DNA from: Gammaproteobacteria bacterium
GTDB lineage: Bacteria > Pseudomonadota > Gammaproteobacteria > Xanthomonadales > Wenzhouxiangellaceae
Direction of reading: 5' to 3'
Assembly: GCA_009908385.1 (NCBI GenBank)
Contig: JAAAPE010000088.1
Coordinates: forward strand, 1 to 34,982
DNA length: 34,982 nt
In this document: positions 12,539-17,728 of the stretch, piece by piece
Layout: the number at the start of each line of letters is the position of its first letter
How positions within the stretch are numbered: the first letter of the stretch is position 1
Program-made: the position numbers and the translations under genes
Notes under the pieces: model-generated
Told to the model about the DNA's origin: nothing
Databases searched by the model: none
Seen by the model: the letters and a program-made list of their open reading frames with translations, nothing else

Positions 12539-13510
12539 ATGGACATCATCAAAAGCGACACCAAGATCAATTTCCTGCGCTTCAGCAATGTGGCGCTGAT
12601 GCTCTCGGCGCTGGTGCTCATCGCCGGCATCGTCTCGCTGTCCGTCCGCGGCCTGAACTTCGGTCTGGACTTCACCGGCGGCACCCTGATCGAGCTGCAT
12701 TATCCCGAGGCGCCGGAGCTGTCCGAAGTTCGTCAGGCGCTCGAGAACGAAGGCTTCGACGAGTTCGTCGTTCAGACCTTCGGAACGGCCAGAGACATCG
12801 TCGTGCGGATCCCCGTCGGCGAGGACGGCGAGACCAGCGCGGATGTCAGCACACGTGTCCTCGAGACCCTCTCGGGCCAGATGGCGAATATCGAGATGCG
12901 CCGTGTCGAGTTCGTCGGGCCGCAGATCGGGCAGGAACTGGCCGAGCAGGGCGGCCTCGCGCTGCTCTACGTGCTGATCGGTGTGCTGATCTACATTTCC
13001 TTCCGCTTCCAGTGGCGCTTCGCCGTGGGCGCGGTCAGCGCCCTGGTGCACGACGTGCTGCTCGTGGTGGGTGTGCTGTCGATCTTCCAGGTCAGTTTCG
13101 ACCTGACCGTGGTCGCGGCCATCCTCGCCGTCATCGGCTACTCGCTCAACGACACCATCGTCGTGTATGACCGCTTGCGCGAGAATTTCCAGACCAAGCG
13201 CAAGGGCTCGCCGGAGGAGCTGACCAACCTGTCGATCAACCAGATGCTCGGCCGGACCCTGATGACCTCGCTGACCACGCTGCTGGTGCTCATCGCGCTG
13301 TTCTACTTCGGTGGCGAGATCATCCACGCCTTCGCCTTCACGCTGATCGTGGGCGTGTTCGTCGGGACCTACTCCTCGGTTTACGTCGCCGGCAGCATGG
13401 CGGTCAAGCTCGGCGTCTCGAAGATGGACCTGATGCCGGTGCAGAAGGAAGGGGCCGACCAGCCGGATACCGAAGTCCTGCCGGAGCGATTCCGCAACCG
13501 CGATGCTTGA
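12539..13510 (+). CDS. secF: Protein translocase subunit SecF
   Basis: A 323-residue partner of SecD in the inner membrane. The family motifs are LNFGLDFTGGTLIEL near the N-terminus, then GYSLNDTIVVYDRLRENF and NQMLGRTLMTSLTTLL. Six membrane segments are expected and visible. A GAGGA lies about 14 bases before the ATG. Its last 8 bases overlap the start of an exported small protein, which suggests that gene is read from the same message. Confidence 0.98.
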   Translation: MDIIKSDTKINFLRFSNVALMLSALVLIAGIVSLSVRGLNFGLDFTGGTLIELHYPEAPELSEVRQALENEGFDEFVVQTFGTARDIVVRIPVGEDGETSADVSTRVLETLSGQMANIEMRRVEFVGPQIGQELAEQGGLALLYVLIGVLIYISFRFQWRFAVGAVSALVHDVLLVVGVLSIFQVSFDLTVVAAILAVIGYSLNDTIVVYDRLRENFQTKRKGSPEELTNLSINQMLGRTLMTSLTTLLVLIALFYFGGEIIHAFAFTLIVGVFVGTYSSVYVAGSMAVKLGVSKMDLMPVQKEGADQPDTEVLPERFRNRDA

Positions 13511-13961
13511 TGCCGCGGCCGGCCGGCGCTGCGCCTGCGGCCTGCTGGTAGCCATGCTGCTGGGCGCGTCGCCGGCGCAGGCGGCCGAACGCTACATGAT
13601 CGAGATGGCGCTGTGGATCGAGGGCAGCAAGCGGGGCGAGCCGATGCTGATCGTCGAGCCCGGAGAGCCCGCCGAAATCTCGTCGACCGATCCCGAAGGC
13701 GAAAACGGCTGGCGGATCGAACTCGAGGTCGAGCCCCCGGCCCCGATCGATGGCGGCGCCGGGGGTGCGATCTGGCTCCACCTGTCGATCCACCGGCTCG
13801 TCGACGGAAACTGGCAGTACCTGACCCATTCGATGCTCGGCGTGCCCGAGGGCGAAAGCAATACCCTCTCGGTGGCCAGCGGTGACGGGGAATCCGGACG
13901 GGACGATGCGCTCGTCCACCTGACCGCCGTCCTCTCCCGCTTGCAGCCCGCAGACGGCTGA
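13503..13961 (+). CDS. Small exported protein of unknown function, coupled to secF
   Basis: A 152-residue protein with a signal peptide (hydrophobic stretch about residues 12-25, cleavage likely after AQA). The mature part is beta-rich: RYMIEMALWIEGSKRGEPML, a VEPGEPAEI segment, an acidic DPEGENGWRIELEVE segment and SIHRLVDGNWQYLTHSMLGV. It has no cysteines outside the signal region and no catalytic motif that I recognise. The ATG at 13503 lies 8 bases inside the secF end, so translation is probably coupled to SecF. The position hints at an envelope or export role, but that is inference only. No family name can be given. Confidence 0.8.
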   Translation: MLDAAAGRRCACGLLVAMLLGASPAQAAERYMIEMALWIEGSKRGEPMLIVEPGEPAEISSTDPEGENGWRIELEVEPPAPIDGGAGGAIWLHLSIHRLVDGNWQYLTHSMLGVPEGESNTLSVASGDGESGRDDALVHLTAVLSRLQPADG

Positions 13962-14046: not shown

Positions 14047-16482
14047 ATGGCCGAACGTCCAGCCGCCGATCGATATCGCGAGGCCAAGGCCATCGCTTTC
14101 GAAGCGCTCGATCTCGCTCCCGGCGAGCGAGAGGCCTTCGTGGCGTCGCGCTGCGCGGACGACGCCGACCTGCGGCGCGAGGTCGACTGGCTGATCGCCG
14201 CCGGCGAAGACGACAGCGACGACGACGTGCCCGAGAGTTTCCAGTCCGCGGCGCGCAGCGCCCTCAGGGACGTGTCGCTGGAAGTCCCGCTGCCGCGCAA
14301 CTACCGTCTTCTGCGGCGGCTCAGCCAGGGCGGCATGGGTATCGTCTACCTGGCCGAACGGGTCGACGGTGATATCCGGCAGCAGGTCGCGTTCAAGCTG
14401 CTCCACCTGAGTGAATCCGACAACCAGGCCGTTGCGCGTCGCTTCGCGACCGAGCGCGGCATCCTGTCGCGGCTCAACCACCCATGGATCGCCCACCTCA
14501 TCGACGGCGGACTGACGGCGGAAGGCCGACCCTTCCTGGCGACCGAATACGTCGACGGGGAGCGGATCGACCGCTGGTGCAGTCAGCGGGAGCTCGGCAC
14601 GGAGCAGCGGATCGAACTGTTTCTCAAGGTCTGCGAGGCGGTCGACTACGCCCACCGGCACATGGTCATCCACCGCGATCTGAAGCCGTCGAACATCATG
14701 GTGACCGACGCCGGCGAGCCGAAGCTCCTGGATTTCGGCGTCGCGCGCCTGCTCGACGCCGAAGAGCAGGCAGCGGAGGGAGGCGCCGGTCAGGCCCAGG
14801 GCCTGACGCTCGCCTACGCCAGCCCGGAACAGATCGAGGGCCGTGGATTGAGTGCGGCCACCGACGTCTATTCGCTGGGCGTGCTGCTCTACGAATTGGT
14901 CGCCGGACACGGGCCCTTCACGGGCCTGGAGTCCGAAGCTCGCCTGCGCGAAGCGGTGCTGGCGGGTGACTGGCCCGCGCCTTCGGAGCGCGGCGGGGGC
15001 GTCGAGGCGGATGTCGAGGCGATCATCGCCCGGGCCATGCACCGCGAGGTCGATGGCCGCTACGACTCGGTGCGGGCGCTGGCCGAGGATCTCAGGCGTT
15101 ATCTCGCGCATCGACCCGTCCGCGCCCGGGATGGCGGCGCCGTATATCGGGCCGGTCGCTTCATTCGGCGCCACCGCCTGGCCCTCGCCGTCGGCGTCGG
15201 CATGCTCTCCCTGCTCGTGGCCTTTCTCGCCGATCGTGAGATGCAGATCGACCGGATAGCCTGGGAAAGGGATCGCGCCGAAGCGGTCACGCGCTTCATG
15301 AACGAACTGTTCGCCGGCGCCGACTCCCTGCCTTCTCGCGGTAACGAAGTCACCGTGCGGGAAATCCTCGACCTCGGGACCCGGCAGCTCGAGCGCACGG
15401 GCGCCGATAACCCGGCCATGCTGGGATCGATGTACCTGGCCCTGGGGCAGGCCTACAACGGGCTGGGGCTGGGCGAGCAGGCGCTACCGCTGCTCGAGCG
15501 AGCCCGGGAGGTCCTGGCGTCCAGATCGGATCTGGCCGCCAGCGCGATGATCGAGGCCGAGCTGGCCGCGGCCTACGACTCGGCCGGTCGCGCGGCCGAC
15601 GCGATCGCCGCCGACGAACGCGCGATCGACCTGTTCGAGCGCGCGCCGGGTGACCACGACGACAGCCTGCTGCGTAGCGGCATAAGAAAGCTCCGCAACC
15701 ACGCCAACGTGCTCGACATACCGCTCGAAGAGGTCGTGGTGGGCCTGGAGGCAATCATCGCCGAACTCGAAGCACGCGCCGGCGCGGACCCCGAGCTGCT
15801 GTTCGAGGCCAAGGCGGCCCTGGTCGGCGCCCAGGTGGTGGGTCGCAATGCCGAGCAGGCCGTGGCGACAGCCGCGGAAGTCCGGGACCTGGCCGAGCGG
15901 CTCTACCGGGACGGGGACCCGCGGCGCCTCCGCGGCCGGTATGTCTACGCGACGGCGCTGATGCTGCGCGATCCCGAATCCGCGGTCGCGATGTTCGAGG
16001 ACCTGATCGCCGATCACGAACGGATGGTCGGTCCCAGCCAGCGCCTGGCCAATACCATCGGCAACTTCGGCGTGGCGCTGTCGAGAATCGGGCGCACCCG
16101 CGAGAGCATGGACTCGTTCGCGCGCGCGGCGGAGATGATCGAACGCACCGTCGGCCGCGACCACTACCTGTTCCGGCTGTCCATGACCAATCTCGCGGCA
16201 CTGCGCCTGCGCGCCGGTGAAGCGCAGGAGGCGGAGCGGCTGATTCGCGACATCCTGCCCGAGCTCGAAAGCCGCCACCTGGAGTTCGGGGGCGTCGAGA
16301 CGCGCTACTGGGCCTCGGCGCTCGAAGTCCTCGCCGGGGCGGAGCTGATGCAGGGCCGTGCGGACGGCGCCGCGTCCCGCTACCGCGCAGCCCTGGCCGT
16401 GCTCGAAGGAGAGGGCGAGGAAGAGTGGCCCGCGCTGCGGGCGCGAATCGCCGGCAAACTCGATCAGCTCGACGGTCGGTAG
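14047..16482 (+). CDS. Transmembrane Ser/Thr protein kinase with C-terminal TPR repeats
   Basis: An 811-residue Hanks-type kinase. An acidic N-terminal leader of about 85 residues precedes the kinase domain (about 85-355). Visible motifs are the glycine loop LSQGGMGIVYLAE, the ATP lysine in VAFKLLH (Lys117), HRDLKPSN (Asp211), LLDFGVA (Asp229) and the YASPEQ activation segment. The first glycine of the loop is replaced by Ser93; the other three remain. One membrane helix spans about 378-396. The remaining ~410 residues are helical with TPR-like repeats (MYLALGQAYNGLGLGEQALP), probably a sensor or partner-binding region. The gene ends 6 bases from the convergent ECF sigma gene. Kinases of this form are often beside such sigma factors, so the sigma is the likely partner or substrate. 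Confidence 0.93.
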   Translation: MAERPAADRYREAKAIAFEALDLAPGEREAFVASRCADDADLRREVDWLIAAGEDDSDDDVPESFQSAARSALRDVSLEVPLPRNYRLLRRLSQGGMGIVYLAERVDGDIRQQVAFKLLHLSESDNQAVARRFATERGILSRLNHPWIAHLIDGGLTAEGRPFLATEYVDGERIDRWCSQRELGTEQRIELFLKVCEAVDYAHRHMVIHRDLKPSNIMVTDAGEPKLLDFGVARLLDAEEQAAEGGAGQAQGLTLAYASPEQIEGRGLSAATDVYSLGVLLYELVAGHGPFTGLESEARLREAVLAGDWPAPSERGGGVEADVEAIIARAMHREVDGRYDSVRALAEDLRRYLAHRPVRARDGGAVYRAGRFIRRHRLALAVGVGMLSLLVAFLADREMQIDRIAWERDRAEAVTRFMNELFAGADSLPSRGNEVTVREILDLGTRQLERTGADNPAMLGSMYLALGQAYNGLGLGEQALPLLERAREVLASRSDLAASAMIEAELAAAYDSAGRAADAIAADERAIDLFERAPGDHDDSLLRSGIRKLRNHANVLDIPLEEVVVGLEAIIAELEARAGADPELLFEAKAALVGAQVVGRNAEQAVATAAEVRDLAERLYRDGDPRRLRGRYVYATALMLRDPESAVAMFEDLIADHERMVGPSQRLANTIGNFGVALSRIGRTRESMDSFARAAEMIERTVGRDHYLFRLSMTNLAALRLRAGEAQEAERLIRDILPELESRHLEFGGVETRYWASALEVLAGAELMQGRADGAASRYRAALAVLEGEGEEEWPALRARIAGKLDQLDGR

Positions 16483-16488
16483 GGGGCG

Positions 16489-17064
16489 CTATCCGCCCTC
16501 TGACAGGCGGCGCTTGAGCCAGGCCCGGGCCATCCGCCATTCGCGCGCCACGGTGGAGCGGGAAATGTCCAGGGTCTGGGCCGTTTCGTCCATGCTCAGG
16601 CCGGCGAAGTAGCGCAGTTCCACGATGCGCGCCTGGCGCTCGTCGATTTCGGCGAGTTGCTCGAGCACCTCGTCGATGGCGATCAGTTCCGAGCCCAGCG
16701 CCTCACCGGATTCCGACTCCTCGAATTCGACGCGCAGGTGCTCCTGGGGTCGCTTGTCGGCGTTGCGCTTGCGGGCATAGTCGACCAGGACGCGGCGCAT
16801 GATCGTGGCGGCCACCAGCACGAACTCGCTACGGTTCTGCCAGCTTTCATACTCCTGGCCGGCCAGGCGCAGGTAGGCTTCGTTGATCAGGGCCGTCGGC
16901 TGCAGAGTGTGGTCCTGCCGCTGCCGTGACAGCTGGCGGGCGGCTAGGGCGCGCAGCTCGTCGTAGACCAGGGGCAGCATGCTCGCCAGGGAAGCCTCCC
17001 CCCGCTCGGTACAGCGCCTGACGATGGCTTCCAGTTCGGCGGGGTGGTTCGGCGACGGCGGCAT
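16489..17064 (-). CDS. ECF-type sigma-70 factor of the TIGR02999-like group
   Basis: A 191-residue sigma factor with region 2 (about residues 22-90) and region 4 (about 135-185). Region 4 carries LRYFAGLSMDETAQTLDIS and the helix-turn-helix end RSTVAREWRMARAWLKRRL. In region 2 the usual acidic DAEDxxQE motif is absent; the aligned stretch is HTLQPTALINEAYLRL, with Thr53 and Thr57. In one studied ECF group (EcfP/PknT of Vibrio parahaemolyticus) a missing acidic motif is made good by threonine phosphorylation from a linked kinase. The convergent kinase gene makes the same scheme plausible here. ATG at 17064 is preferred; a GTG at 17127 would add 21 residues. No anti-sigma gene is visible. Confidence 0.9.
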   Translation of the reverse strand: MPPSPNHPAELEAIVRRCTERGEASLASMLPLVYDELRALAARQLSRQRQDHTLQPTALINEAYLRLAGQEYESWQNRSEFVLVAATIMRRVLVDYARKRNADKRPQEHLRVEFEESESGEALGSELIAIDEVLEQLAEIDERQARIVELRYFAGLSMDETAQTLDISRSTVAREWRMARAWLKRRLSEGG

Positions 17065-17122
17065 TCCGGTCGGATCGACGTGGGCGAGTCTCAATGCTAC
17101 CGCATTGTCGCGGCAGCGCGAT

Positions 17123-17152
17123 TTCACTTTATGTGTCCGACTGCACTACAAT
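17123..17152 (+). promoter_or_regulatory. Candidate sigma-70 promoter for the 17189 gene
   Basis: TTCACT at 17123-17128 and TACAAT at 17147-17152 are separated by 18 bases. The predicted transcript starts near 17159, and an AGGGG ribosome site lies at 17177-17181, before the TTG start. Confidence 0.5.
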
Positions 17153-17188
17153 GCCCGCAATGCAGATTCGCACGTCAGGGGACGCTTC

Positions 17189-17728
17189 TTGAAAATCGCC
17201 GCAGGCACGGCCGTCCTGTTGATGCTCGCGTGGTCGTTTCCGGCCGCCGGCGAGGATCGTCCCGGCTGCCTGATCGCACCCGGCGACCTGGCCGCGCGGT
17301 CGGCCTCGGACGGTCCGGCGATGATCGATCTGCCGGGTGGACCCGCCGGCGTCGAGCCTTCTTGCAGCGGCCTTCGCCTCGAAGGCGTAGCGGTGCGCCT
17401 GCCGCTGGGCAGTCGGCACGACATCACCCTGCATGTCAGAACGGGTCAGGGCGACTGGCGCGCGCTCGACGGCGAGGGCAGGGTGGTCGGCTGGGTCGGA
17501 ATCGACGCCAGCCGGCGCCATCCCGACAGCGTGGTCGTCAGCATCCGATCGCCCCGCGAAGGCGTCCCGGGAGAACGCTCGGACGCGACGCTGGTGTTCG
17601 AGCCGGCATCGGTCGCAGAAGATATCCTGACGATCCCGGTCGAGCTGGAACTCGTCGAGGAAGCGCCCATGTTCCGCGACGAGTTCGACGTCGATCCGGT
17701 CATCGGCCAGTTCAGCCTGGTTTACTGA
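17189..17728 (+). CDS. Exported protein of unknown function, TTG start
   Basis: A 179-residue predicted exported protein. No ATG or GTG gives a sensible start, but TTG at 17189 lies 7 bases after AGGGG and opens directly into a signal peptide (LKIAAGTAVLLMLAWSFPAAG). The mature protein has two cysteines (Cys in RPGCLIAPG and in EPSCSGLRLEG) that may form a disulfide, followed by a beta-rich region. It ends MFRDEFDVDPVIGQFSLVY. The MFRDEFD part resembles IFSDRFE at the end of the protein at 32204-32497. No family or function is recognised. It is divergent from the ECF sigma gene, so it is a possible target of that sigma. Confidence 0.75.
   Translation: MKIAAGTAVLLMLAWSFPAAGEDRPGCLIAPGDLAARSASDGPAMIDLPGGPAGVEPSCSGLRLEGVAVRLPLGSRHDITLHVRTGQGDWRALDGEGRVVGWVGIDASRRHPDSVVVSIRSPREGVPGERSDATLVFEPASVAEDILTIPVELELVEEAPMFRDEFDVDPVIGQFSLVY

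Follow-up and report, generated by a model that had tools for sequence, protein, structure and literature searches.

The window analysed here is a stretch of 34,982 nucleotides, the complete contig C130 of a 2.9-Mb genome (G000) with a completeness of 85%. It encodes an extracytoplasmic function (ECF) sigma factor next to a transmembrane Ser/Thr kinase, and this pair is the subject of our analysis. The sigma factor is 83% identical to that of a Wenzhouxiangella metagenome-assembled genome and 82% identical to that of Wenzhouxiangella sediminis. Genome G003, in which the locus coordinates agree with those of W. sediminis, is listed as a genome of the same genus, and we infer that G000 belongs to the genus Wenzhouxiangella. 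The features of the pair are as follows.

14047-16482, + strand: transmembrane Hanks-type Ser/Thr kinase, PknS-like, 811 amino acids with an 85-amino-acid N-terminal extension (PF00069, 1.5e-40; TPR_12, 1.1e-14)
14302-15105, + strand: catalytic domain of the kinase, residues 86-353, main catalytic motifs present (Pfam and PDB match)
15175-15234, + strand: predicted membrane span, about residues 377-396 (19-residue hydropathy maximum of 2.22 at residue 378)
15235-16479, + strand: tetratricopeptide repeat (TPR) region, predicted periplasmic sensor (TPR_12 and TPR_10 matches; membrane side taken from PknS, PMC13147305)
16489-17064, - strand: ECF43-type sigma factor, 191 amino acids (TIGR02999, 186.9 bits; PF07638, 159 bits)
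16891-16902, - strand: neutral QPTA, residues 55-58, replacing DAED (column alignment)
16894-16896, - strand: Thr57, at the position of the EcfK phosphosite T51 (alignment with an EcfK relative)
16726-16728, - strand: Glu113 in the sigma2-sigma4 linker, aligned to the second EcfK phosphosite T106 (alignment with an EcfK relative)

The sigma factor and its kinase neighbour

The sigma factor exceeded the curated cut-offs of both family models (126.15 bits for TIGR02999 [Sig-70_X6] and 21.1 bits for PF07638) and was an ordinary member of the family, with no difference seen. These models presumably correspond to the group ECF43. Residues 52 to 67 read HTLQPTALINEAYLRL, with Thr53 and Thr57 counted from the ATG at 17064. 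In the QPTA columns, two canonical ECF sigma factors of G000 read DTED (L008) and ETQD (L012); the other four weak PF07638 matches of this genome were gapped there (three) or not recovered (L009). Glu62 of region 2.2 is kept in the window protein and in 100 of 101 unique relatives, and thus not all acids of the sigma factor have been lost. The following hallmarks of ECF43 were found: the family match, an uncharged DAED position, the Thr, a kinase neighbour, and no anti-sigma family in the nine neighbours covered by the scan.

The kinase stop codon (16480-16482) and the sigma stop codon (16489-16491) are 6 bp apart, tail to tail. Its catalytic motifs include GGMG at 95 (the glycine loop), K117, HRDLKPSN (209), and DFG (229), and in the kinase a single strong hydrophobic segment is followed by C-terminal TPRs. 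Its best solved relative in the PDB was 9eed (E value of 1e-44 over residues 6-353), which is PknS of Xanthomonas citri (PMC13147305, cited, like the other papers below, from excerpts). The architecture of PknS/PknT-type kinases, with an N-terminal extension, one transmembrane segment, and TPRs, was indeed found in the window kinase; by analogy, this kinase is predicted to be catalytically active and to expose its TPR part on the extracytoplasmic side. No anti-sigma family was found among the nine neighbouring proteins scanned (from tgt to a PA-domain protein), two of which (13503-13961 and 17189-17728) had no Pfam match at an E value of 0.1. An earlier note on this DNA had described an ECF sigma factor at 16489-17064 that lacks the acidic motif, an intact-looking transmembrane Ser/Thr kinase with a TPR sensor 6 bases away tail to tail, and the absence of an anti-sigma gene. 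Its coordinates and its account of the motif and of the kinase proved correct, and the absence of an anti-sigma gene held as far as Pfam families in these nine neighbours go.

Kinases beside paralogous and related sigma factors

All seven strong PF07638 sigma factors of G000 keep Thr57 and have a PF00069 kinase next door, versus a kinase beside one of the six weaker matches, which are other ECF sigma factors (the one is on contig C27; another of the six is on contig C47, which is 3.7 kb long). Thus, the pairing of sigma factor and kinase exceeds chance. In this tally, no sigma factor was recovered at L038. In the three complete congeners (G018, G026, and G027), a kinase lay within 3.5 kb of 28 of the 31 TIGR02999 sigma factors above the cut-off (15/16 in one congener, 5/6 in another, and 8/9 in a third), and Thr57 was kept in 28 of the 31. 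Over all named genomes, a kinase was present within 3.5 kb at 69 of 79 loci; L105, a wrong fragment, was excluded from this tally (80 in total) and from the tree. Two of the three congener sigma factors without a kinase flank the Thr with acids (L193, DPTE; L203, DATE), which would be consistent with a lower requirement for phosphate and perhaps independence from a kinase. However, three cases prove nothing, and the C113 sigma factor has the motif DPTE and yet a kinase.

A separate observation concerns the L038 locus on C27, where a sigma factor outside ECF43 with an acidic ETQD (G000:C27:18805-19278) lies beside a TPR kinase (L038:3673-6591). The catalytic loop of this kinase reads HGD, not HRD; further HGD kinases are found on C35 (two) and C135 (one).

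In a midpoint-rooted tree without an outgroup, the window sigma factor falls in a clade with a support of 100/95, and 20 of its 21 rows are labelled convergent. Fifteen of the 17 named loci of this clade have the convergent order; L083 shows a kinase tail on the opposite strand, and the contig of L089 stops 707 bases downstream (L083, L085, and L089 are all near contig ends). At the 62 named loci outside the clade, the kinase gene usually follows the sigma gene on the same strand (48); it precedes it on that strand at 4 loci, is convergent at 2, and is not present within 3.5 kb at 8. Convergent cases beyond the clade number at least two, L122 and L129, and in three G026 paralogues the kinase is upstream on the other strand. 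These data would fit a single origin of the tail-to-tail order in the clade.

The neighbouring kinase might still not be the regulator: control could lie in the expression level of the sigma factor or in a kinase encoded far away, and the two genes would then be neighbours by coincidence. The genes are convergent, so they are not co-transcribed, and with 17 kinase matches above the cut-off in G000, other kinases are at hand. We nevertheless regard this reading as improbable: the convergent pair persists at 15 of the 17 clade loci, with the kinase tail at the 16th, although hutI is a neighbour at 6 and secF at 3 of the 17 (at several loci the contig ends too early for a judgement; we named hutI and hutH after their amidohydrolase and aromatic lyase matches). 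The support of the clade and the kinases beside all seven strong paralogues argue in the same direction.

Thr57 is the counterpart of a known phosphorylation site

Direct phosphorylation of the equivalent threonine was shown in EcfK and EcfP (PMC13147305, PMC8999054). The PknS chain was searched in 398 genomes of the order, and one genome matched at 99%. The sigma factor adjoining this match, read from the Met that fits, served as the EcfK relative; it carries 11 of 11 residues of the EcfK paper (Y29, R33, T35, Q49, T51, E52, H55, T104, T106, S108, and S110) and falls among the family rows of the tree on a long branch (1.71). In the alignment with this protein, T57 of the window corresponds to T51, A58 to E52, T53 to Gly47, E113 to T106, and Ser117 to S110. 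Therefore, Thr57 is the homologue of the EcfK/EcfP phosphosite and Thr53 is not. The earlier note had named both residues as candidate sites, with their conservation to be checked by alignment, and one of the two survived: Thr57 matches the phosphosite, and its column holds Thr in 97 of the 101 unique relatives and 113 of the 118 rows of the tree (L105 remains in the 101-relative set and is one of its four non-Thr rows). Thr53 is kept in 93 of 101 but was rejected, being Gly in the EcfK relative and lost in several paralogues.

EcfK has five phosphosites, of which T51 or T106 alone suffices (PMC13147305). In the linker, where the alignment with the EcfK relative is gap-free but short, E113 of the window likely pairs with T106. 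Residues S, T, D, and E occupy this column in 97 of the 118 tree rows; in the 22 listed rows of the window clade, near-duplicates included, it holds D or E (16), S (5), or Q (1). With Glu already present at residue 113, where EcfK has its second switch, we would expect Thr57 alone to decide activation, as is the case in EcfP. This prediction would hold for the window protein and not for every member of the clade.

Proposed mechanism

We consider it likely that kinase and sigma factor form a signalling unit of the ECF43 type, in which the kinase phosphorylates Thr57 and thereby switches the sigma factor on. The membrane kinase would sense something through its C-terminal TPR region, autophosphorylate, and then phosphorylate Thr57 in region 2.2 of the sigma factor. 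In the unphosphorylated state, the sigma factor would bind core RNA polymerase poorly, as QPTA has none of the acidic charges through which the beta' clamp is contacted; phosphorylation of Thr57 would supply charge and switch the sigma factor on. The activated sigma factor would probably drive the divergent gene of an exported protein from a promoter-like element at 17121-17153 (see below). Sequence, family, conservation, adjacency, and synteny were read directly from the genomes. Kinase activity, activation, and phosphorylation in the organism of the window we infer from the relatives. A phospho-activated sigma factor of the EcfP/PknT kind had been suggested in the earlier note, and this idea gained support from the family models, the DAED position, the alignment with the EcfK relative, the PknS-type architecture, and the adjacency. 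Phospho-activation has already been published for ECF43 (PMC8999054, PMC8103513, PMC13147305), and a phospho-switch at the window locus is a known mechanism, not a new one.

Several observations weigh against this mechanism. Three kinase-paired sigma factors of G026 lack Thr57 (L191, NTRV; L196, EPRM; L199, DTVA). Conversely, among the 53 unique loci flanked by 3 kb or more in both directions, seven show no kinase in view, yet Thr57 is retained in every one of the seven; this residue thus does not strictly track an adjacent kinase. Given these exceptions, the conservation of Thr57 supports phosphorylation by the neighbour without proving it. The convergent order denies the pair co-transcription. 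Six of the 22 clade rows have Ser (5) or Gln (1) in the E113 column, and thus the single-switch idea is not clade-wide. Finally, X. citri EcfK with T51A alone is functional (PMC13147305), so Thr57 could likewise be dispensable.

Some of these points would also suit a sigma factor that is controlled by the kinase at a decisive site elsewhere, either Ser117/Ser119 of the linker or several residues, with Thr57 serving structure or direct contact. The five phosphosites of EcfK, the two of them that suffice, the kinase-paired relatives without Thr57, and the persistence of Thr57 at loci without a visible kinase all speak for this, as does the alignment of Ser117 with the EcfK phosphosite S110. However, T106, the only site of the EcfK linker with a demonstrated role (PMC13147305), is already Glu113 here, in a column that is acidic in 16 of the 22 listed clade rows, and Thr57 aligns with the one site common to EcfP and EcfK. 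A decisive site other than Thr57 is therefore rather unlikely, and we retain phosphorylation of Thr57 by the neighbouring kinase as the preferred mechanism.

The pair resembles EcfK/PknS of X. citri (PMC13147305) in the sigma family, in the equivalence of T51 and Thr57, and in the N-terminal extension, transmembrane segment, and TPR sensor of the kinase. In contrast to the window protein with its QPTA and E113, EcfK has the motif QATE, which keeps an acid, and a second switch at T106. Also, the EcfK relative and its kinase are encoded on one strand, unlike the convergent window pair. EcfK controls a type VI secretion system (PMC13147305); none was seen among the window neighbours scanned. With EcfP/PknT of Vibrio parahaemolyticus (PMC8999054, PMC8103513), the window protein shares the lack of an acid in the DAED position (STTA versus QPTA) and a Thr as third motif residue, which is the phosphorylated one in EcfP; this is a likeness by motif as described in PMC8999054. 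The polymyxin regulon of EcfP has no known counterpart here. Like canonical ECF sigma factors controlled by a membrane anti-sigma factor, the window protein has two domains and the region 2.2 glutamate (E62), but unlike them it has QPTA instead of DAED, and its scanned neighbours include no anti-sigma family.

A divergent gene for an exported protein

The sigma gene is flanked on its other side by a divergent gene, with the following features.

17121-17153, + strand: conserved promoter-like element upstream of the divergent gene, with the two boxes ATTTCAC-N19-TACAATG (upstream-region alignment)
17189-17728, + strand: gene of a small exported immunoglobulin (Ig)-like protein, TTG start assumed (synteny, AlphaFold, Foldseek)
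17672-17716, + strand: conserved tail FRDEFDVDPVIGQFS of the exported protein, predicted to be unstructured (13-sequence alignment and AlphaFold)

The protein has a hydrophobic segment at its N terminus. Relatives were found in the same place at 13 of the 17 named orthologous loci (weakest E value, 9e-4). When 61 relatives were searched with a profile of these 13 sequences, 23 genomes contained a total of 24 matches below 1e-15, and 22 of the matches directly adjoin a clade sigma factor, which corresponds to 22 of the 25 genomes with a best sigma match below 1e-60. As judged by matching coordinates, 13 of these 22 genomes supplied rows of the profile and 9 are outside it. The protein was not found beside the sigma factor in G014, G025, and G015 (in G015 the locus is close to the end of its contig). 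Two further strong matches are away from a clade sigma factor, namely, G010:C331 and, with its tail part only, G002:C60. With 21 to 34% identity to the window copy, the protein is fast evolving; at Wenzhouxiangella-like loci, the identity is 58 to 83% for the sigma factor and 51 to 65% for the TPR region of the kinase.

Ten columns are invariant in the 13 sequences, among them two Cys and F162, R163, F166, P170, G173, Q174, and F175, and the tail has the near-invariant pattern FR[DN]xFx[VI]xPxxGQF. AlphaFold predicted beta strands with a mean pLDDT (predicted local distance difference test) of 72.2 and, after residue 156, neither helix nor strand, with a pLDDT of about 62 to 64. The Foldseek matches listed (50 rows) were mostly Ig-like, with TM-scores by query length that did not exceed 0.39, and they do not point to a function.

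The two-box element was present in 14 (relaxed form) or 9 (strict form) of 22 upstream regions. For the relaxed form, 0.03 occurrences were expected in base shuffles, which served as the control for a pattern written after the alignment of these related sequences had been seen. In seven genomes, the exact element occurred once each in G000, G003, and G026, always at this locus, and was absent from the remaining four; the reversed control had a single occurrence, in G018. A multi-gene regulon was not found with this element, the exact form being confined to this locus in three of seven genomes. The element reads toward the exported-protein gene. It may be a housekeeping promoter, because it fits the sigma-70 hexamers in 9 of 12 positions.

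The exported protein may be the target of the sigma factor or the signal of the kinase; the promoter as a target and the nature of the signal are the most conjectural parts of the mechanism. It could also be asked whether this protein, or an unrecognised anti-sigma factor, restrains the sigma factor, given the two neighbours without a Pfam match. But the exported protein, with its N-terminal hydrophobic segment and Ig-like body, has no obvious cytoplasmic part that would bind a sigma factor, and the 13503-13961 gene is present at 3 of the 17 orthologous loci (several contigs may not reach it). Such restraint is very improbable in our view, and kinase control through Thr57 stays the preferred explanation. 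The 13503-13961 gene itself lies between secF and the kinase gene and encodes a small protein with a hydrophobic N terminus.

More speculative, and doubtful at present, is a lineage-specific three-part circuit of the kinase, its tail-to-tail sigma factor, and a dedicated exported Ig-like protein expressed from the divergent promoter, in which the periplasmic TPRs would read the unstructured tail. As this tail resembles the C-terminal tag [ILV]FxDRFE described below, the kinase would then monitor whether tagged proteins are exported or anchored, with feedback on transcription. A conserved secreted partner is not mentioned in the passages of the ECF43 kinase-sigma literature available, and a literature search for Wenzhouxiangella and sigma factor gave nothing related, judging by title.

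A C-terminal tag of exported proteins

Many predicted exported proteins of G000 end in [ILV]FxDRFE, with a few more residues before the stop codon (examples in G000 are at L155, L158, L161, L162, L166, L181, and L183). The corresponding DNA pattern occurred 31 times in G000, versus none for the reversed control, and 25 of 30 places read were within 15 residues of an in-frame stop. It occurred 26 times in G018, 81 times in G026, and 29 times in G027, with a single control match, in G026. Of six tagged proteins scanned, four matched choice-of-anchor Q, in two cases below the cut-off; the remaining two matched nothing. The motif resembles a tag for sorting or anchoring. A literature search for three of its spellings gave no match, and nothing fitting by title was among the matches listed in a wider search.

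An association of the tag with ECF43/kinase loci was suggested by G000 but not upheld in the three complete congeners. At 6 kb, the circular-shift p values for G026, G027, and G018 were 0.25, 0.03, and 0.48 near sigma factors and 0.56, 0.09, and 0.42 near kinases. Two of 24 p values were below 0.05, namely, 0.027 and 0.0095 (G026 sigma factors with a tag within 10 kb).

Implications

If the proposed mechanism is true, direct phosphorylation of sigma factors would extend to Wenzhouxiangella. The four genomes counted have 5, 7, 8, and 15 kinase-paired sigma factors of the TIGR02999 family, and these multiple parallel pairs within one genus would be a natural test bed for insulation between pairs. 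The window protein, with QPTA and E113, is a probable single-site switch to be contrasted with the two-site switch of EcfK, and its conserved secreted neighbour would be a concrete candidate for the output or the signal of an ECF43 system.

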